Shown piece after piece: positions 14,552 to 43,570 of a DNA stretch of 43,725 nt. A program made the translations under genes and the position numbers. Under the pieces are notes generated by a model. It searched no databases. It was not told the DNA's origin and was given only the letters and a program-made list of their open reading frames with translations. Where the stretch lies: positions 1 to 43,725 of IMG/VR virus record IMGVR_UViG_3300042939_000422. One strand, written 5' to 3'. The DNA comes from a virus. Position 1 is the first letter of the stretch, and each line of letters starts with the position of its first letter.

Positions 14552-15051
14552 AGTTCCATCTCCTCTCCGTTGAATCGAATCGTCACCCCCAGCGGACCAG
14601 CGAGCCAGCGGATATTGACCCTCGCCTCAATCAGCATGGCCTCGGCCTTGACGATCTGTTCGGTCCACCGATCCGGCGTTGCCGCCCGCGGCCGAACATG
14701 GCCCACCACCTCCGATATGCCGGCCATGATGATCGCCCTGGCACAGTCCATGCAGGAGAACCATGGGCAGTAGAGAGTCGCCCCCAACGTCGGCGTGCCC
14801 ACCCGCGCGGCGGCGTAGATCGCGGCCCGCTCCGCGTGTTCGATGTAGCCGTACTTCTCCGGCCTCCGCAGCCTTCCCGGCGCGGCCCACACCCCAGACG
14901 GCACCTTGTTGACTCCGATGCAGACGTAGGACGCAGTCGCAGGAACCAGGACTGCACCGTTCTGCGTGTGCGGGTCATCGCTGCCGGAGGCGGCCTCCTG
15001 GGCGGCGATCCGCAGCCACTCCAGCGGTGGCGTGTAGTCAATCGCAGCCAT
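14548..15051 (-). CDS. dCMP/cytidine deaminase family protein
   Basis: 167 aa. The zinc site is complete: HAE at residues 72-74 (YIEHAERAAIYAAA) and the two Cys of CPWFSCMDCARAI (100 and 103). The N-terminal DPHTQNGAVLV and IGVNKVP strands match deoxycytidylate deaminase (DxxTQNGAVIV, GxN). The expected reaction is dCMP to dUMP, feeding thymidylate synthesis. It is coupled to the metallophosphoesterase through TGATG upstream and to the dNMP kinase through ATGA downstream. A role restricted to free nucleotides rather than RNA is inferred from family and neighbours. Confidence 0.88.
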   Translation of the reverse strand: MAAIDYTPPLEWLRIAAQEAASGSDDPHTQNGAVLVPATASYVCIGVNKVPSGVWAAPGRLRRPEKYGYIEHAERAAIYAAARVGTPTLGATLYCPWFSCMDCARAIIMAGISEVVGHVRPRAATPDRWTEQIVKAEAMLIEARVNIRWLAGPLGVTIRFNGEEMEL

Positions 15052-16202
15052 CAGTCAACACCCGCAACGTGCATGGACACGAGTCCGCCCTCGGGGCGGT
15101 AGAGAAACGTCTCCATGGCCCGCCGAGACCCGATGAACCCGTTTTCGGCGTGCCAATCGTCCGGCGGGCAGATGGCCGGGGCGGTCCTGACGATCACTCC
15201 GTCAATCGTCTCGATGGGCCGCTGCCACTCCGCGGCCTGGGAGTGGTAGTGCCCGGTGTGCCACTCTCGGCAGGCGGCGTTGCTCCAGTGCTTCGGCTGC
15301 TCCAGGGCCATGATCTGCCCCAGTTTCCTCTTGGCCTTGTGGCCGTGGGCGAAGCCCAGAAGATTCCGGCCGTGCGTGGCGTACTGCCTGCCCGTGTGTG
15401 CGTCCGACACCGTCACGCGGCCGTCGTTGCGAAACCGCTCCATCAGCACACGCTGCCACGCCCATGAAAGCGTTTCGTCGTGGTTCCCGTTGACGACCAG
15501 AACGTCCGTCGGCGCTGTCGCGGCCGACCGCTCCACCATCTCCAGGAGCGTGTCCCAGCCGATCTGGAGCATCTTCTGCAGCCGGCCGTCGCGCTCCAGC
15601 TGTGTGCCAGAGGTGGTCTGCCCACGGGGGTTGTCGTAATGGAGGATGTCGCCAAGAAACGCGATCGTCCGTCGCGCCGGCTTCATTGCGTCTCCGACGG
15701 CGAGCAGTTCGCCAGACACCTGCCGCACGATCTTCTCGGCGATGTAGAGGTCGTAGTTCGCGCCGCCGGTCGTGCCCTTGTAGGCGTAATTGCCGAAATG
15801 AACGTCTGACACGACGACGACCTGCCACAGGCCGTTCCGCTTCGCCGGCCGCGGCACGCTCTTTCTTCGCAGGTCCTTGGCCGCCGCGGCGATCATGGCC
15901 TCGACGCACTCCAGCACACCCGGGCCGGCCTTGGGCTTGAGGCGAACGAAGACGCGGTGGAGTTCGACGGCACCGCCGCTGCCATCGCCGCACTCCCACT
16001 TGGTGGCCTCGCTCGCGGCCACCTCGTAGCGAGTCATGTCGGCGTCGATGTGCCGGAGCAAATCCTCGACGGTCTTGATCCGGCGGGATGTGCTTTTGGC
16101 CTCCAGCGTGTCGCCATCTCGCCGCTGCGTCACCTGCTCGGCGTCGGCAGTCACTGGGGTCGTGGCCGCAAGAACGTCGGCCTTCAGGGTCGTCTTAGCC
16201 AC
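15051..16202 (-). CDS. calcineurin-like metallophosphoesterase
   Basis: 383 aa. A ~120-residue N-terminal helical region is followed by a complete metallophosphoesterase core: VVSDVHFG (D133, H135), FLGDILH (D185), VNGNHDE (N240, H241), FAHGHK and HTGHYHS near 317-320. The substrate is unknown; phage members are variously nucleases or nucleotide phosphatases. GTG 16202 has GGAG seven bases upstream and overlaps the previous gene by 19 nt. Its position next to the deaminase and dNMP kinase suggests nucleotide or DNA metabolism, although it lies in the tail operon. Confidence 0.88.
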   Translation of the reverse strand: MAKTTLKADVLAATTPVTADAEQVTQRRDGDTLEAKSTSRRIKTVEDLLRHIDADMTRYEVAASEATKWECGDGSGGAVELHRVFVRLKPKAGPGVLECVEAMIAAAAKDLRRKSVPRPAKRNGLWQVVVVSDVHFGNYAYKGTTGGANYDLYIAEKIVRQVSGELLAVGDAMKPARRTIAFLGDILHYDNPRGQTTSGTQLERDGRLQKMLQIGWDTLLEMVERSAATAPTDVLVVNGNHDETLSWAWQRVLMERFRNDGRVTVSDAHTGRQYATHGRNLLGFAHGHKAKRKLGQIMALEQPKHWSNAACREWHTGHYHSQAAEWQRPIETIDGVIVRTAPAICPPDDWHAENGFIGSRRAMETFLYRPEGGLVSMHVAGVD

Positions 16203-33219: not shown

Positions 33220-34752
33220 TCAGATAATGCCCGCAAGTATGAGTACCGATAGATCGAAGCCGTGCCTCGCTCGCCTACGAAATGTGGCCGGTTCACGATA
33301 GATGGATTCTATGCCGGTAGAAAACACCTCTGTCCCGCGATTTATTCGAGGTTTGTTCGGAAGCGACTGCCGCATGGCCTGATCGTATCCACAGTCGGAA
33401 TACCTCCTTGCGTACCCGAGATGGCTTGGCGCATAGAGGTCTAGGTGCTGCCGCTGCTCGCCGGCTCTGTAGAGGCACTCGTAGAACCCGACACCGTTCA
33501 CGCCCATGATCTTCGACCCCTTTTCGTTGGCCAGAAAGTCATTTGCCCGCTTTGTGAAATCCTCATCCAGGGCGCGGAGCGTTCTCGCGTCTGCATTTTC
33601 GATTGCGTGCCCATACTCGTGGACTGCCGTCTTCCTTGTTGTGCCCCGATCCTGCGCGCCGATTGTTACCTCCTCCTCGTCTCCGTTGTGCGAGCCGCCG
33701 CCGCCGGGGCGAATCGCGATTTTCTGCCGCGCGATGGTCTTGGCGTGCTTCGTAGACGCAACTCGCGAAAGCCACCGCCACGCATCTTTGAGCGAGTCAA
33801 TTGCGTGTTCGCGATCTTCCAGCGACACGCCGGGTTTTGTCACTATCTTGTAGTCCTTGACGTCCGTCGAAACAGTGGCCGTGCCGCCGGAATAAGCCCT
33901 CGTGAACTCGCCAACGACGGCGTGAAGTTTGTCGTCGCGCTCCGCATAGTGGGATTCAATCGCTTGCTGTTGCCGCTTGATGGACTCCTTGATTTCATCG
34001 TGCCGCGATTTCCACTCGTCGCGGCGTGCGTTGAACATCGCTCGATCATTTTCGTGACTGCGAAGAGTGTCGCCAAGGTTGTCAATGTCTTGCTGCGTTT
34101 TGAATATTCGCGCGTCGTATTCAGCCTCGATCCGTTTCGACTCGGAGTGCAGCGCGTCGAGGTCTTGCTTGTGTCGGCGAATCTGGAACTCGACCTCTGT
34201 CTCGCCGGCGTTCTTCACGGCGCTGGAGGCCTTTCCAGAAAACATCGACGCCGGCTTCTCGATTACCTTGAGCCGCTCGTTCGCTTTCTTGACGCGAATC
34301 TTCTGCAGCATGGCGGCGCGCTTCTTGGCGGCGGCCTCGGCGGCGGCCTGCTTTTCCGCGGCCTCGCGCTCGCCCTTCTGGGCCTTGCGCTCGGCGGCCG
34401 ACTTGCGCAAGCCCTCTATCCGACGACGCTTGACGTCGGAGGCCATTTTCTGCTTTTTGGCGACCATCTCCTTTTGAGCCAGCGCCTTGGCTGCAGCGAT
34501 GTCTTTCTTCGCGTTGCCCTGCTTCAGCGCGCCGCCCTGCGAGAGCGGCTTCTGCGGAATGCCGTCCTCGGTGGCGCAGTTGTTGCCGGCCTTGAAGCCG
34601 CCGGCTCCGGTGCCGCAGCCAGCCGACGCGCCCATCTTGGCGGGCCGGCGATTGGCAGCCTTGACCTTCTTCTGCTTGCGCGGGCCGCCGCCGCGGCGGC
34701 GAAACTCCGCAAGCCGCTCCAGGGCGGCCCGCAGTTCAGCGAGGACGTCCAT
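33220..34752 (-). CDS. phage head-cluster protein with C-terminal zincin-like domain
   Basis: 510 aa from ATG 34752. The N-terminus (DVLAELRAALERLAEFRRRG) is followed by a Lys-rich linker and a GCGTGAGGFKAGNNCATEDG motif, a short Cys/Gly segment known in phage minor-head proteins. Residues ~75-330 are a long, highly charged helical region (KASSAVKNAGETEVEFQIRR; EADYDARIFKTQQDIDNLGD-like). The last 135 residues contain HEYGHAIE (378-382) with GTEVFSTGIESIY near 475-485, whose Glu could be the third zinc ligand, so a metallopeptidase-like domain. It overlaps the prohead-protease gene by 17 nt. It could be an injected effector, a maturation protease or an inactive relic. Confidence 0.65.
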   Translation of the reverse strand: MDVLAELRAALERLAEFRRRGGGPRKQKKVKAANRRPAKMGASAGCGTGAGGFKAGNNCATEDGIPQKPLSQGGALKQGNAKKDIAAAKALAQKEMVAKKQKMASDVKRRRIEGLRKSAAERKAQKGEREAAEKQAAAEAAAKKRAAMLQKIRVKKANERLKVIEKPASMFSGKASSAVKNAGETEVEFQIRRHKQDLDALHSESKRIEAEYDARIFKTQQDIDNLGDTLRSHENDRAMFNARRDEWKSRHDEIKESIKRQQQAIESHYAERDDKLHAVVGEFTRAYSGGTATVSTDVKDYKIVTKPGVSLEDREHAIDSLKDAWRWLSRVASTKHAKTIARQKIAIRPGGGGSHNGDEEEVTIGAQDRGTTRKTAVHEYGHAIENADARTLRALDEDFTKRANDFLANEKGSKIMGVNGVGFYECLYRAGEQRQHLDLYAPSHLGYARRYSDCGYDQAMRQSLPNKPRINRGTEVFSTGIESIYREPATFRRRARHGFDLSVLILAGII

Positions 34753-36262
34753 GGGCCGCGGTCTCCAGTGCCTTGGCCTTGAGGCGAGCAGCCTCTGCCG
34801 CCGGATCCACGCTGCGCTTCGCAGGCTGCGCGAGCCGCTCCTCGGGGATGACCCAGAGTTTGCAGACGGCGTTGGGGTCGATCTGCCCGTCAACGACGTC
34901 GCACGAGCCGCCCTCGTTCCAGAAGATGCAGTTCTGGCACTTCATGCCGCGCTCGGCGAACGGATTCTCGGTCATGTAGTGGGCGCCGTCGGGTCCTTCC
35001 TGCGGCCACGGGCCGTTCTCGACGGCAATCTGCTCGATGGCCTCGTAGAGCGCGAAGTTGGCCGGAGACAGGGTCTCCATCGGATCTTCCTCGGCGCGGA
35101 CCTCGACTTCCGCCTCCGGCTCGGCGCGGTCGGCCGACTCCATGGCCGCCACCTTGCGAGACGCCCAGTTCTTCGCCGGCGTGCCGCCCCACAGCAGCCA
35201 TGCCACGAACCCGGGCTTCTCCTCGCCGGCCTTGTCCCAGCCGGGCGACTTGCTCGCCGACTCGTGACGCGCGAACCACGCGTTCATCTCGCGGACATGG
35301 TCTTCGGTCAGTTCCTCGCGGCGGGCGATCTTGTTTGCGCGGGCCACGGTCTCGGGCTTCAGGCCGTCGCCTGACTTGCCTTCCTCGTGCAGCCGCAGGC
35401 CGCGCTTGGCGGCGGCGGCCATGCCAGCGGTGGGCTTGAGGCCGACGGCCCGCTGGTCGATGAACGCCGGGGCCTCGCCCATGATGTTGCTGGCCGAAAC
35501 CAGTTCGCTCATCTTCTTGGCGACGAAGTAGTCGGACTCCTCCCAGACGCCGTCCTCGAAGTCGTACTTCCGCACCAGGGCGGCCGGATCGTCAGGCGTG
35601 GCCTCGATCGGCTCCTCCGAATAGTCGCCAATCGACCCCTCGGCCATGACGTACTCGATGCGGCCGACACCGCCGTCCCAGGCCACGAAGTCGCCAGCGG
35701 CGTACATGGCACGCTTCGCCATCTCCAGCGCCCGGCGGCTGACGAACGTCTCGGTCGCTGGGTAGGCCGGCCGCAGGACCGGGCCAACGTCGAACAGGCC
35801 GTCGAAGTCGACGATCTCTCGGAGTTGGCGGCCGTCGGCCATCCGCGTCCACTTCTCGCCGGCACCCTTCACCTTGAAGGCGAAGGACGATCCTCGGACG
35901 TCGCCACGCTCAATAGCCTCCACGACGTCAGCGCGGCTTTCAGGAGCGTCGATTTCGTAGCGGAGACCACGCTCGTCGACGGAGAGACGAAGAGTTCCGG
36001 CCGACTCTCGGCCAAGGAGGAACATCGGCTCATGGTTGTAGAGGGCAACGACGTCGGTTCCTCGCTTGATGACATTGTCAAAGGCTCCAGGGAGAATCCG
36101 CTCCACAAAGCCGCCCAGATCCTGGCTGTCGCTCTGGAACAATGCCGCATAGCCGCGGATGACGGCCTTCTTCTTGCCAGTTTTGTCGCAGAGGCAGCGC
36201 TCGACGGCCGTGTCGGCCTCGATCAGCCGTCGCTCAACGTCTTCTCGACTCTGTCCGTCCAT
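34736..36262 (-). CDS. prohead protease (HK97/U35-like) fused to extra C-terminal domains
   Basis: 508 aa, far longer than the ~200 aa of a simple prohead protease. Residues ~30-175 are the protease: VIRGYAALFQSDSQDLGGFV, catalytic His77 in LYNHEP and Ser125/126 in RGSSFAFKV, ending in FDVGPVLRPAYPATE. Residues ~210-380 hold an alpha-helical segment with AAKRGLRLHEEGKSGDGLKP, ARREELTEDHVREMNAWFAR and PGFVAWLLWGGTPAKNWASR. Residues ~440-475 hold a four-Cys motif (MKCQNCIFWNEGGSC ... VCKLWVIP) that may bind a metal or Fe-S cluster. AGGAGG lies ten bases before ATG 36262. It should cleave the capsid delta domain during maturation; the appended domains have no assigned role. Confidence 0.85.
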   Translation of the reverse strand: MDGQSREDVERRLIEADTAVERCLCDKTGKKKAVIRGYAALFQSDSQDLGGFVERILPGAFDNVIKRGTDVVALYNHEPMFLLGRESAGTLRLSVDERGLRYEIDAPESRADVVEAIERGDVRGSSFAFKVKGAGEKWTRMADGRQLREIVDFDGLFDVGPVLRPAYPATETFVSRRALEMAKRAMYAAGDFVAWDGGVGRIEYVMAEGSIGDYSEEPIEATPDDPAALVRKYDFEDGVWEESDYFVAKKMSELVSASNIMGEAPAFIDQRAVGLKPTAGMAAAAKRGLRLHEEGKSGDGLKPETVARANKIARREELTEDHVREMNAWFARHESASKSPGWDKAGEEKPGFVAWLLWGGTPAKNWASRKVAAMESADRAEPEAEVEVRAEEDPMETLSPANFALYEAIEQIAVENGPWPQEGPDGAHYMTENPFAERGMKCQNCIFWNEGGSCDVVDGQIDPNAVCKLWVIPEERLAQPAKRSVDPAAEAARLKAKALETAAHGRPR

Positions 36263-39976: not shown

Positions 39977-40086
39977 CTCAAACTCGTGACCGGGTGCGAG
40001 GCGTTGGCGTGCGGTCTGCCGAGGGGGGCGGCCAACTTTCCCGGCCCCCCCGCCCCCGCCGGATCCGCGCCGCCCCCGTGATTCGC

Positions 40087-40635
40087 GGGCCTGGGCCTCG
40101 ATCACCAGGGCGGGCCTGGGCCTCGATCACCAGGGCGGGCCTGGGCCTCGATCGCCAGGGCGGGCCTGGGCCTCGATCACCAGGGCGAGCCTGGGCCTCG
40201 ATCACCAGGGCGGGCCTGGGCCTCGATCGCCAGGGCGGGCCGGCGGGCCGGCGGGCCGGCGGGCCGGCGGGCCGGCGGGCCGGCACCAGGGCGGGCCTGG
40301 GCCTCGATCACCAGGGCGGGCCTGGGCCTCGATCACCAGGGCGGGCCGGCGAGCCGGCACCAGGGCGAGCCTGGGCCTCGATCACCAGGGCGGGCCTGGG
40401 CCTCGATCACCAGGGCGAGCCTGGGCCTCGATCACCAGGGCGGGCCGGCGAGCCGGCACCAGGGCGAGCCTGGGCCTCGATCACCAGGGCGGGCCGGCGA
40501 GCCGGCACCAGGGCGGGCCTGGGCCTCGATCGCCTGGGAGGGCCGGCGAGCCGGCACCAGGGCGGGCCTGGGCCTCGATCGCCTGGGAGGGCCGGCCGCT
40601 CGATCGCCTGGGAGGGCCTGGGCCTCGATCGCCTG
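40087..40635. repeat. GC-rich degenerate tandem repeat array, 25-bp unit
   Basis: About 15 copies of GCCTGGGCCTCGAT are spaced by CACCAGGGCGG or variants, giving a 25-bp main unit. They are interspersed with a second unit built on GGGCCGGC, including six GGGCCGGC in a row near 40230-40285 and CCGGCGAGCCGGCACC spacers. Copies differ by A/G and C/T swaps (CGATCACC or CGATCGCC). There are no unique spacers, so it is not a CRISPR array. The units contain CCAGG...CCTGG dyads. Function unknown; iteron, recombination or DNA-protein assembly roles are possible. Confidence 0.85.
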
Positions 40636-40777
40636 GGCCGCGGATCCGACGATCGGCCTGTACGTCAAACCGCCTGCAGCGTTGACGTACAAAAACCGGC
40701 CGCCGGCCCGGGGATCATGCCGGCCGCGGATCCGACGATCGGCCTGTACGTCAAACCGCCGCCCACGTTGACGTACA
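40636..40777. repeat. two 56-bp direct repeats, each with a 10-bp inverted repeat
   Basis: The units at 40636-40691 and 40722-40777 are identical except for about five bases. Each contains GGCCGCGGATCCGACGATCG, then TGTACGTCAA, a 13-base loop and TTGACGTACA. The difference lies inside the loop (ACCGCCTGCAGCG against ACCGCCGCCCACG), so the stems are conserved while the loop varies. They stand just after the terminator of the AAA+/VWA operon. A protein-binding site pair, origin element or RNA hairpin pair are possible. Confidence 0.8.
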
Positions 40778-40821
40778 GAAAAGCAAGAGGGCCGCCGATC
40801 CGGCTGGCGGATCGGCGGCCC
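40776..40821 (-). terminator. intrinsic terminator of the AAA+/VWA operon
   Basis: On the minus strand a 14-bp perfect stem (GGGCCGCCGATCCG with loop CCAGC; 40789-40821) is followed by the U-rich stretch CTCTTGCTTTTCTG. It lies 27 bp after the VWA stop codon. Confidence 0.75.
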
Positions 40822-40848
40822 CGGCTGGCCACGGTCGACGGTCGACGG

Positions 40849-42126
40849 TCACCGCCGCAGCGCGTCAACGTGCGGGATGATTTTGATTCCCGCGGCCCGG
40901 CAGATCGCCCGGCACTCGGCATGCGATTCAGAGCCGATCCCGAAATCAGTCACGCCGCCGACCCCCTCGTCAGAGATCCAGAAACGCGGGGCCGGCTGGC
41001 GAGCCAGCCACCGCAGCGCCGGACCGTCCACGAGGTTGTCGCCACCGGGCAGGGCACGGCGAACGTCCGCCACGGTGGCGGCCCGGCCCTTCGAGCCGGC
41101 AACGACGATCCGGCCCAACTTCCGCCCCTGGGAGCCGGCATAGAACGCGATCGTCGCGCCCGGCGCTTCGAGGATCAGCCGCTCGATGTCGTCGTCCGAA
41201 TAGTGCATGGATCCGGACGCATCACACAGCACAGTGCCACCCTTGACCCGCCGCTTCGAGGCGAAGATAGCGCCGTCGACCGGGAGCCGATGGACGGCCG
41301 ACGGAATCACCCCGGCATCGCTCCAACGGCGGGCCGGGGCGCGGCGCGGCCGGATGGATCGAGTCGTTTTCAGAGTGTGAACGTCCGACAGCGGATACCA
41401 TGCTCCGCGGGCCTTGATGGTGCGCAGTTTGCGCGCCGCTTCCAGGTCTCCGGGCTGGCGGCTATTCCCGCCATCGGTGCCCGGCGGAAACTCGAAGTCG
41501 AAGGCCTGGGCCAGTGGCACGGTCCAGGACTTGAACCCCGCCTGCGTCCGGATCGCCTTGACGAACGGACTCGGGCCGCTCCGGCGGCGGCGGCCGCGGC
41601 CGCGGGAGAGCCGCTCTTTCTGGGTCTCGATCATGCACTCGATCCGGGCCTCGATCCCGTCGAGGACTCCGGAGTCGACGCCACGGCGGGCGAAGGCATT
41701 GAACAGCCGCGCCCGCTGGTAGGGCTGGAACCAATTCACGAGGAACGCGCCGGCGATCGTCCGATCGGATCCGCCGCACACCTGGGCGATCATGTCGGCC
41801 TCGGTCTCCGTGATCGCGTCACGGTCGACCAGATCCGCACGATCGAGGAACGCGCCGATCCGGGAATCTTCGCTCCACTGGATCGCTTCCATCGTCACGC
41901 CGTGCCGCTTGCACAGCGCGTCCGCGGACATTCGCGGCGTGAGCCGGGCGTGCCCTAGTTCGTGATTCCGCACGAGGCGCGCCGTCGGCGTGTCGGACAA
42001 CGGGGCGAACAGGTTTGCTTTTTTCGTGTCGGTCGCGCCGGCTAGGTCACCGGGGCTTCCGGCCACGGTCCATCGACGGCCGTCGATCGCGGCCGGCATC
42101 GGTCGATTCATGTCGGGCAGGTGCAT
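40849..42126 (-). CDS. VWA-domain protein with HExxH...EDxRI signature (CobT/NorD-like)
   Basis: 425 aa from ATG 42126 with GGGAGA upstream. Residues ~50-95 carry LVRNHELGHARLTP (HELGH 55-59), then IQWSEDSRIGAFLD (EDSRI 86-90). This is the motif pair found in CobT-, NorD- and CbbO-type proteins that work with MoxR-family ATPases. The C-terminal VWA domain has the MIDAS motif VLCDASGSM (D302, S304, S306), with YAGSQGRKLGRIVVAGSKGR and FWISDEGVGGVTDFG as further strands. It is expected to bind a divalent metal and to be driven by the adjacent AAA+ ATPase. The target is unknown: metal insertion, protein remodelling or phage-host conflict are options. A longer frame to 42195 lacks a ribosome-binding site. 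Confidence 0.8.
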   Translation of the reverse strand: MHLPDMNRPMPAAIDGRRWTVAGSPGDLAGATDTKKANLFAPLSDTPTARLVRNHELGHARLTPRMSADALCKRHGVTMEAIQWSEDSRIGAFLDRADLVDRDAITETEADMIAQVCGGSDRTIAGAFLVNWFQPYQRARLFNAFARRGVDSGVLDGIEARIECMIETQKERLSRGRGRRRRSGPSPFVKAIRTQAGFKSWTVPLAQAFDFEFPPGTDGGNSRQPGDLEAARKLRTIKARGAWYPLSDVHTLKTTRSIRPRRAPARRWSDAGVIPSAVHRLPVDGAIFASKRRVKGGTVLCDASGSMHYSDDDIERLILEAPGATIAFYAGSQGRKLGRIVVAGSKGRAATVADVRRALPGGDNLVDGPALRWLARQPAPRFWISDEGVGGVTDFGIGSESHAECRAICRAAGIKIIPHVDALRR

Positions 42127-42161
42127 TGTGGGGTCTCCCTTGAATGTCGGTCTCTCGATCC

Positions 42162-42192
42162 GCCGGGGCCGCCCAACGTGGGCGGCCCCGGC
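42162..42192 (-). other. long hairpin between AAA+ and VWA genes
   Basis: A perfect 14-bp stem (GCCGGGGCCGCCCA) with a 3-nt loop, 35 nt upstream of the VWA start. No T-run follows, so it is more likely an mRNA-stability or expression-ratio element than a terminator. Confidence 0.6.
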
Positions 42193-42207
42193 CACGGTCC
42201 GCCGCGG

Positions 42208-42885
42208 TTACTCCGCGGCCACGGCGAGCGAGTCCAGGACCGCTTGCCAATTGGGACCGAACGTCGCCGCCGCCGCGGTCTCCGCGCCCACGGCCGCACG
42301 GAGCCGGGCGAACGCCAGCCACGAACGGAGCGTCACGCGATCGTCACCCGTGGCGGTCACGGTGCCGCGGGCTGCGTTGTGCAGGTCCGCGGGAAGGGCC
42401 TCGATCGCCGCGGGGTGCGGTTCGAGAATCTCGACGTTGACGCTGAAGCGATCACGCAGCGCCGGCAGGAGATCCTCGGGCCGGCCGTTCATCGTGCCCA
42501 CGACATGGAACCCTCGGGCCGGGGTCACGGTCTCACCGCTCGGGAGGGTGAGCCGGCACGATTCCCGATTGTCGAGGGCCGCCAGCAGAAACGACAGCGT
42601 GTCGCCGCCGGCATGGTCGACCTCGTTGAGAACGACACGGGAACCCTCCCGCATCGCGGCCACAACGGGACCGTCCACCCAAACGAACTCGCCGCCGCGG
42701 GGGTGGTAGTGCCCACGCAATTCGGCGGCCGGAGTCTCCGGCGTGAGCGTCACGTTCCGGACGCCACCCGTGCCAGCCTGGGCCGCGAAACTCTTGCCCG
42801 TGCCCGGAGGACCGTACAGGAGCGTATTCCCTTCGGCCACCGCGACCACCGCTTCCGCCACCTTCCAACTGTCGACCTTAGCCAT
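42208..42885 (-). CDS. MoxR/CobS-like AAA+ ATPase
   Basis: 225 aa from ATG 42885 with GGGAGA upstream. Walker A GPPGTGKS (25-32), Walker B VVLNEVDHA (84-92), a MoxR-style loop TLPSGETVTPARGFHVVGTM with sensor-1 Asn133 (GTMNGRPEDL) and arginine RDRF (144-147). It is shorter than cellular MoxR (~300 aa), mainly by loss of the C-terminal lid. MoxR ATPases typically remodel VWA partner proteins and their clients. The VWA gene follows directly, so the two form a functional pair. It is preceded by a strong structured element at 42915-42961. A longer frame to 42906 is rejected. Confidence 0.85.
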   Translation of the reverse strand: MAKVDSWKVAEAVVAVAEGNTLLYGPPGTGKSFAAQAGTGGVRNVTLTPETPAAELRGHYHPRGGEFVWVDGPVVAAMREGSRVVLNEVDHAGGDTLSFLLAALDNRESCRLTLPSGETVTPARGFHVVGTMNGRPEDLLPALRDRFSVNVEILEPHPAAIEALPADLHNAARGTVTATGDDRVTLRSWLAFARLRAAVGAETAAAATFGPNWQAVLDSLAVAAE

Positions 42886-42914
42886 GATTGTCTCTCCCTT
42901 GCACACTCGAAACC

Positions 42915-42961
42915 CTCCCGCACGGGGCCGGGGCGATCGCCCCGAAAAACCCCGGCGGGAG
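42915..42961 (-). other. nested hairpin between the 65-aa gene and the AAA+ gene
   Basis: CTCCCGC (42915-42921) pairs with GCGGGAG (42955-42961), CGGGG pairs with CCCCG inside it, and the centre is the 16-bp palindrome CGGGGCGATCGCCCCG (42929-42944). AAAAA at 42945-42949 is a TTTTT loop on the minus strand. As a partial terminator it could set the ratio of the small protein to the ATPase. Confidence 0.55.
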
Positions 42962-42981
42962 AATACTGTCGCTCTGTCGCC

Positions 42982-43179
42982 TTACTCGCCGATCGCCCGG
43001 AGGAGCGCGTCCAGATCGTCACCACTGGGCGCGTCCGGATCGCTTCCGAACTCTGCCGCCAGCGCTTCGAGCGCTTCGCACACTTCAACGTCCAGGGTAT
43101 CGGCGTGCCGGAAAATACGGGGCGGCCGGCTGCGGACGGTGGCGGACGGTGCGATCATCAAGGAATAGTTGCCGAACAT
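42982..43179 (-). CDS. small acidic protein, first gene of the AAA+/VWA operon
   Basis: 65 aa from ATG 43179 with AGGGAGA upstream. FGNYSLMIAPSATVRSRPPR, then an acidic helical C-terminus (LDVEVCEALEALAAEFGSDP, then SGDDLDALLRAIGE). No family was recognised. It lies ~50 nt after the predicted promoter and is co-transcribed with the AAA+ and VWA genes. An adaptor, inhibitor or substrate-tag protein for the ATPase pair is possible from position and charge only. Confidence 0.6.
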   Translation of the reverse strand: MFGNYSLMIAPSATVRSRPPRIFRHADTLDVEVCEALEALAAEFGSDPDAPSGDDLDALLRAIGE

Positions 43180-43234
43180 TGGTCACGGTCTCCCTCGGGG
43201 TTGTGTCGCCCGGTAGCCTTCCCGGGTCGCAGGA

Positions 43235-43263
43235 AAGATAACCCGAACGGTCAAGTCGTGCAA
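43235..43263 (-). promoter_or_regulatory. sigma70-like promoter of the AAA+/VWA operon
   Basis: On the minus strand TTGCAC (43258-43263) and TATCTT (43235-43240) are separated by exactly 17 bp, ~50 bp upstream of the 65-aa gene. A TTGACC lies inside the spacer. This is the best promoter match seen in the window. Confidence 0.6.
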
Positions 43264-43339: not shown

Positions 43340-43570
43340 CTATCGGTAGGGTAGAATCCGGTCCGCGCCGTCCACGAGGGCCGCCAGCGTCCGCCGGATC
43401 GGTCCCGGGCCGGGCGGCGGGGCCGGCAGCACGGGGGCGGCTGGCCATGGGGCCGCCGCGGCCGGCCACGGGGCCGGGGCCGCCACGGGCGGCGGGACGG
43501 GGGCGGGCGGCTGCAGGGCCGCCACGAGGGCCGCCACGGCGACGGCGAGGGCGATCGGATCGCGGTGCAT
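43340..43570 (-). CDS. Pro/Ala-rich protein with hydrophobic N-terminus
   Basis: 76 aa from ATG 43570 with CGGAG eight bases upstream. MHRDPIALAVAVAALVAALQ is a hydrophobic N-terminal segment that could be a signal or membrane anchor. It is followed by a Pro/Ala/Trp low-complexity stretch (VPPPVAAPAPWPAAAAPW) and an Arg-containing end (RRTLAALVDGADRILPYR). It may be a small secreted or membrane-tethered protein. The extreme GC content makes coding uncertain; only the ribosome-binding site and the start support it. Confidence 0.4.
   Translation of the reverse strand: MHRDPIALAVAVAALVAALQPPAPVPPPVAAPAPWPAAAAPWPAAPVLPAPPPGPGPIRRTLAALVDGADRILPYR

Follow-up and report, generated by a model that had tools for sequence, protein, structure and literature searches.

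MoxR-VWA gene pairs are common in phages, where annotation often assigns them to vitamin B12, and we found no tested function for them in tailed phages. Phage MoxR/metallopeptidase-VWA pairs and pairs annotated as CobST have already been described (PMC7824862, PMC8651126, PMC7911831, PMC11288001). The question raised by the present locus is what such a pair does for the phage that carries it. The window, i.e., the whole stretch of DNA that was analysed, is a linear IMG/VR virus record of 43,725 b. It contains a three-gene operon that encodes an acidic protein, an AAA+ ATPase and a protein with zincin-like and VWA parts (Table 1). For the last gene the mechanical ORF reaches 42195 by way of an upstream GTG. 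The operon is followed 3′, on the same strand, by genes for TerS, TerL, portal, head protease and major head protein. Contaminant host DNA was considered as the source of the operon and is rejected, since several independent contigs have the operon running on into the packaging genes of a phage. Related contigs show the same gene order as the window or run beyond its right end; thus, the window probably represents only part of a longer sequence, with its breaks at repeats. The window terminase is about 42% identical to terminases of various Firmicutes-type phages, and portal matches at 25–39% are found in 15/294 Planctomycetota genomes.

Table 1. Operon, expression signals and protein motifs in the window, in the order of transcription of the operon.
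Feature	Position	Strand	Basis or remark
Promoter TTGCAC-17-TATCTT, CTTGACCGTT	43235..43263	minus	place and spacer (17-18) kept in 7/7 of the window group
Operon of three genes	40849-43179	minus	ORFs and expression signals
GGGAGA ribosome-binding site, 65-aa gene	43189..43194	minus	word count on minus strand
65-aa acidic protein gene	42982-43179	minus	no Pfam match; weak PHROG match only
Intercistronic RNA hairpin 1	42915..42961	minus	compensatory changes
GGGAGA ribosome-binding site, AAA gene	42893..42898	minus	word count on minus strand
AAA+ ATPase gene, 225 aa, ATG start	42208-42885	minus	Pfam AAA_5, PHROG 16448, AF2, PDB match
Intercistronic RNA hairpin 2, 14 bp	42162..42192	minus	compensatory changes
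GGGAGA ribosome-binding site, VWA gene	42134..42139	minus	word count on minus strand
Zincin-like + VWA protein gene, 425 aa, ATG start	40849-42126	minus	PHROG 33218, AF2, PDB match
HELGH, residues 55-59, putative zinc-site motif	41950..41964	minus	in helix 47-62 (AF2)
EDSRI, residues 86-90, E86 = putative third zinc ligand	41857..41871	minus	in helix 79-96 (AF2)
MIDAS DASGSM, residues 302-307, plus N364, D367, D386	41206..41223	minus	alignment of 56
Terminator hairpin after operon, 14-bp stem and T-rich tail	40788..40822	minus	stem scan
Head maturation protease gene	34736-36262	as operon	separate window gene

A sequence-only reading of the window had described a MoxR-VWA pair in a phage with its own promoter, peculiar ribosome-binding sites, large intercistronic hairpins and a strong terminator. 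This description holds: packaging genes follow the operon, and other, independent contigs show the arrangement again. We refer to the window and six relatives (L003 and L007–L011) as the window group, and all seven share the promoter layout. The layout is TTGCAN-17-TAnnTT, except that L010 has TTGACA-18-TAGAAT at the same position. The scanner missed the operon promoter because it matches the consensus at only 8/12 positions. The word GGGAGA occurs seven times on the minus strand, and the three occurrences that lie shortly 5′ of an ATG precede exactly the three operon genes. It was absent from the starts called for seven other main genes of the window. Eight stems in the window have 10 or more perfect pairs, compared with 0–3 in each of eight shuffles, and half of these stems fall within 40659–42192. 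In hairpin 1, both sides change at 8 of 18 pairs and 94% of cells are paired, a result equalled by 0/500 shuffles. In hairpin 2, compensatory changes are found at 5/14 pairs and all cells are paired (7 sequences), which beats nearly all shuffles. Both hairpins were judged against shuffled and slid controls in only seven related sequences, and an Rfam search of the operon gave no match above the gathering score. Relatives also carry a strong stem 3′ of the VWA gene. Expression signals of this kind are a property of the window group; many members of the family outside it have an ATPase gene that overlaps or directly adjoins the VWA gene.

By sequence and predicted fold, the 225-aa protein is a NorQ/MoxR-type AAA+ ATPase with a variant Walker B. 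Pfam AAA_5 is matched at 2e-22, the AF2 model has a mean pLDDT of 93.4, and the best PDB fold match is NorQ 9qh9 (E 1e-15). By sequence, too, NorQ is the nearest single-module protein, nearer than CobS. The protein has the features of a MoxR/NorQ-type module: an AAA_5-type module, Walker A (GPPGTGKS), sensor 1 (N133), an Arg finger and sensor 2; R146 and R187 are present. Across the family, Walker A, R146 and both sensors are conserved. Walker B, VLNEVDHA, has Asn-Glu in place of the canonical Asp-Glu in 48/49 ATPases, while the Glu is kept in 49/49. The usual Walker B Asp is described as the magnesium ligand (PMC9976466). The replacement makes ATP hydrolysis by the phage ATPase less certain, and because Walker B is not canonical we assign the protein to the NorQ/MoxR type on fold and sequence, as a variant. 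In the Walker B region (42601–42627, residues 87–95), Asn takes the place of the Asp and an Asp stands two residues past the Glu, so that the two are exchanged when compared with the midasin-type DE.N.

In the VWA protein, a zincin-like domain with HExxH...EDxRI at the N-terminus is fused to a VWA domain with a MIDAS at the C-terminus, which is the architecture of metallopeptidase-VWA co-chaperones. HELGH, EDSRI and the MIDAS, all noted in the sequence-only reading, are present and conserved. In the alignment of 56 members, H55, E56 and H59 are kept in 52, 51 and 52, respectively, E86 in 55, and R89 in all; D302, S304, S306, N364, D367 and D386 of the MIDAS are each 56/56. The combination of HExxH with E[DE]xR[IVLMF] is found in 1 of the 237 window ORFs of at least 100 aa. 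Seven of the 56 members have partly lost the HExxH/E site, the residues of which are each kept at 91% or more, and all seven retain the MIDAS. It follows that not every member needs proteolysis. In the AF2 model (mean pLDDT 85.7), the HExxH and E86 lie in two helices, and a linker modelled with low confidence leads on to a VWA fold. Its best PDB match is NorD 9qhd_G, a modest one (Foldseek E 8e-4, TM 0.20–0.29), which supports the earlier description of the protein as NorD-like; phage VWA proteins labelled ‘cobalamin biosynthesis’ are also among the best matches of the model. Searching PDB sequences with the profile of the VWA protein gave nothing meaningful. Each of the 56 proteins in the alignment has a match to PHROG 33218, of unknown function; Pfam has no entry for the family and gave one spurious match among the 56. 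In NorD, a finger of the VWA domain enters the ATPase ring (PMC13036017), and by analogy the strongly conserved stretch before the MIDAS of the phage protein may be such a finger.

The 65-aa protein has 12 D/E against 5 K/R, and its C-terminus, AL.ALAAEF...DLDALLRAIGE, is kept in most of the window group. A short acidic ORF is found at the same place in 7/7 members of that group and nowhere else; it is absent from L021. The triplet proposed earlier thus stands for the window group, and in the wider family the unit is the pair. Where it is present, the acidic partner could occupy the MIDAS of the VWA protein.

Linkage of the pair is strict, and the earlier expectation that the two proteins co-occur elsewhere was borne out. 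The ATPase gene is directly 5′ of the VWA gene in 74/74 untruncated loci found with the VWA protein, and a VWA gene is 3′ of the ATPase gene in 77/80 loci found with the ATPase, the exceptions being contigs that end just past the ATPase gene. Adjacent genes and a MIDAS intact in every aligned member indicate, at the gene level, a MoxR-VWA partnership. The distances of the two proteins correlate across 42 genomes (r = 0.95), a value that shared descent alone could yield. Single scans of viral contigs gave 268 VWA and 309 ATPase matches, and the pair is mostly in contigs of 20–60 kb. Isolate phages and plasmids gave no tblastn match to the VWA protein, and genomic copies of the pair are rare (in the G025 phylum, titled Planctomycetota, 2/294 genomes). 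In one genome of that phylum, the pair at L199 (G290:C190) is apparently chromosomal, its neighbours being judged by eye.

Among the closest systems already described is the jumbo-phage pair of Iyer et al. 2021 (PMC7824862), in which a MoxR-type ATPase is encoded beside a VWA protein that has a metallopeptidase domain at its N-terminus. The present proteins differ in being compact (225 and 425 aa) and in forming their own sequence family; the jumbo-phage members were compared by description only. The signature HExxHA.[LWY][ST]...E[DE].RI plus D.SGSM is common to the VWA family and proteins of cyanophage P-HM1, Mosig and actinophage DSL-LC01, and the Mosig ATPase is matched by the ATPase profile at 1.8e-20. 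P-HM1 and Mosig also have replication/recombination gene neighbours: in P-HM1, the ‘peptidase’ and cobS sit between gp46 and gp45/gp44. In both, however, the gene order is VWA-AAA, and the VWA proteins of the cyanophage/pelagiphage CobS-‘peptidase’ pairs and of DSL-LC01 are longer (609–769 aa). In hhalign comparisons with known phage members (1e-4, 5e-3), similarity of the VWA protein is confined to 39–67 columns around the zinc motif. Given the common zinc/MIDAS signature and a similarity limited to the motif, the pair is, by sequence, a compact variant of the known phage MoxR/metallopeptidase-VWA pairs. NorQ-NorD, which mature nitric oxide reductase, provide the best PDB match of each phage protein, and NorD likewise has an N-terminal helical domain, a linker and a VWA domain with a MIDAS. 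The phage pair differs in its Asn-Glu Walker B, in its conserved HExxH and in having another client. CbbQ-CbbO, RavA-ViaA, Midasin and ATV p618/p892 are also AAA+ plus VWA partnerships; they have other clients, and the portions of their descriptions consulted make no mention of an HExxH domain.

The gene neighbours of the pair point to DNA recombination and packaging. An SbcD-like exonuclease gene lies 3′ of the pair on the same strand in 117/171 loci, many of them related (at 328–542 nt in those listed), and an annealing-protein-like gene comes next after it in 59 loci; these phages are not independent samples. Counted by VWA cluster (single linkage, 50% identity), the exonuclease is within 1 kb 3′ of the pair in 10/21. 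Terminase genes adjoin the pair in the window group and in the distant phage L012. TerL is divergent from the pair in L021, and the two are opposite in strand in most lineages where TerL was found. In the window, the exonuclease gene (15051–16202) does not adjoin the pair, and at the actinophage loci of Gordonia phage Phendrix and phage DSL-LC01, the ATPase gene has no annotated nuclease within 5 kb.

We propose that the pair is a two-part MoxR/NorQD-type AAA+ remodelling machine, possibly proteolytic, that acts on phage nucleoprotein complexes, a reading to which we give about an even chance. The type of machine is well supported; complex formation, protease activity, timing and client are what we infer, the client from the gene neighbours. 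Following the NorQD mechanism and its VWA finger (PMC13036017, PMC9976466), the steps would be as follows. The pair would probably be made before the late genes. The ATPase would form a ring, as in NorQD, and the VWA protein would dock on this ring by way of the conserved stretch that directly precedes its MIDAS. Hydrolysis of ATP would then turn or stretch the VWA protein, with the MIDAS gripping an acidic patch of the client, and the N-terminal helical domain, with its zincin-type HExxH...E site, would probably clip the strained client or a protein bound to it. Because of the gene neighbours, the client would most likely be a phage (or trapped host) nucleoprotein complex of DNA recombination and processing, up to packaging.

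Next after remodelling in DNA processing we place virion assembly, in which the pair would remodel and cleave structural proteins of the head or tail. Iyer et al. 2021 proposed this role for the MoxR and metallopeptidase-VWA pairs of group 2.2 jumbo phages (PMC7824862), it has also been proposed, without a peptidase, for Acidianus two-tailed virus, and the terminase-portal block begins just 3′ of the pair in L012 and the window group. We consider it unlikely, since most lineages have the pair in an operon with the exonuclease and annealing protein, on the strand opposite TerL where TerL was found, and since the window operon has its own promoter and terminator and the window phage its own head maturation protease. 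A chaperone for metal sites, in which HExxH/E only holds the metal and the pair loads or remodels a metalloenzyme, e.g., the SbcD-like metallophosphoesterase, is rather improbable. NorQD does insert iron (PMC13036017), the commonest neighbour belongs to a metal-dependent nuclease family and some members lack HExxH, but most members by far retain HExxH plus E in full, and in the window a long distance separates the nuclease gene from the pair. More improbable still is an anti-host, defence or counter-defence module. The operon of the window group is autonomous and MoxR-VWA cores are known from conflict systems that have been predicted (PMC7159879); against this, the neighbours, read in passing, include no recognised effector or third conflict-system component, and the pair recurs in distant phages in similar functional neighbourhoods rather than as variable cargo. 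Neither the virion metalloenzyme chaperone nor the defence module suggested earlier found direct support. The usual neighbours are a recombination exonuclease and annealing protein or terminase genes. Finally, an auxiliary CobS-CobT cobaltochelatase that boosts host cobalamin synthesis, as the common cobS/cobT annotation implies, is very improbable indeed: the 25 records sampled, some of them fragments, contained neither CobN, which the host might supply, nor a ribonucleotide reductase, which argues against a cobalamin role, and the VWA protein has a conserved HExxH domain and the ATPase is nearer NorQ than CobS, so that of the earlier CobS/CobT-like label the architecture stands and cobalamin synthesis does not.

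It is tempting to extend remodelling of nucleoprotein complexes to phage ‘CobST’ pairs generally, as ATP-driven, protease-coupled machines that clear or remodel proteins on phage DNA together with SbcCD-type nucleases. This we regard as unlikely, and we found in the literature no description of a role of MoxR-VWA systems alongside SbcCD-type recombination nucleases. The PHROG 33218 VWA family is a widespread, unannotated phage family whose usual neighbours suggest phage DNA processing over vitamin B12. Its abundance in IMG/VR, a size compact enough for biochemistry and its neighbours make what phage CobST does directly testable.

The flanks of the operon are rich in repeats. Directly beyond the terminator lie two copies (40659–40691 and 40744–40778) of an inverted repeat, TGTACGTCAA...TTGACGTACA, both of which are present in L004 and L005, with a variant in L007. 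Farther on is a GC-rich tandem array of 22 copies of a 25-bp unit (40085–40638). Relatives have tandem arrays of other sequence at the equivalent place after the VWA gene, and it is within or close to such arrays that several contigs end. Between terminator and array, an element TCGACGC..TAGGATTGCGC is conserved 3′ of the VWA gene in L003, L009, L010, L011 and L112. At the other end, 5′ of the operon promoter, is a small Ala/Pro-rich ORF with repeats (43340–43570), and similar ORFs are found in L003 and L007.
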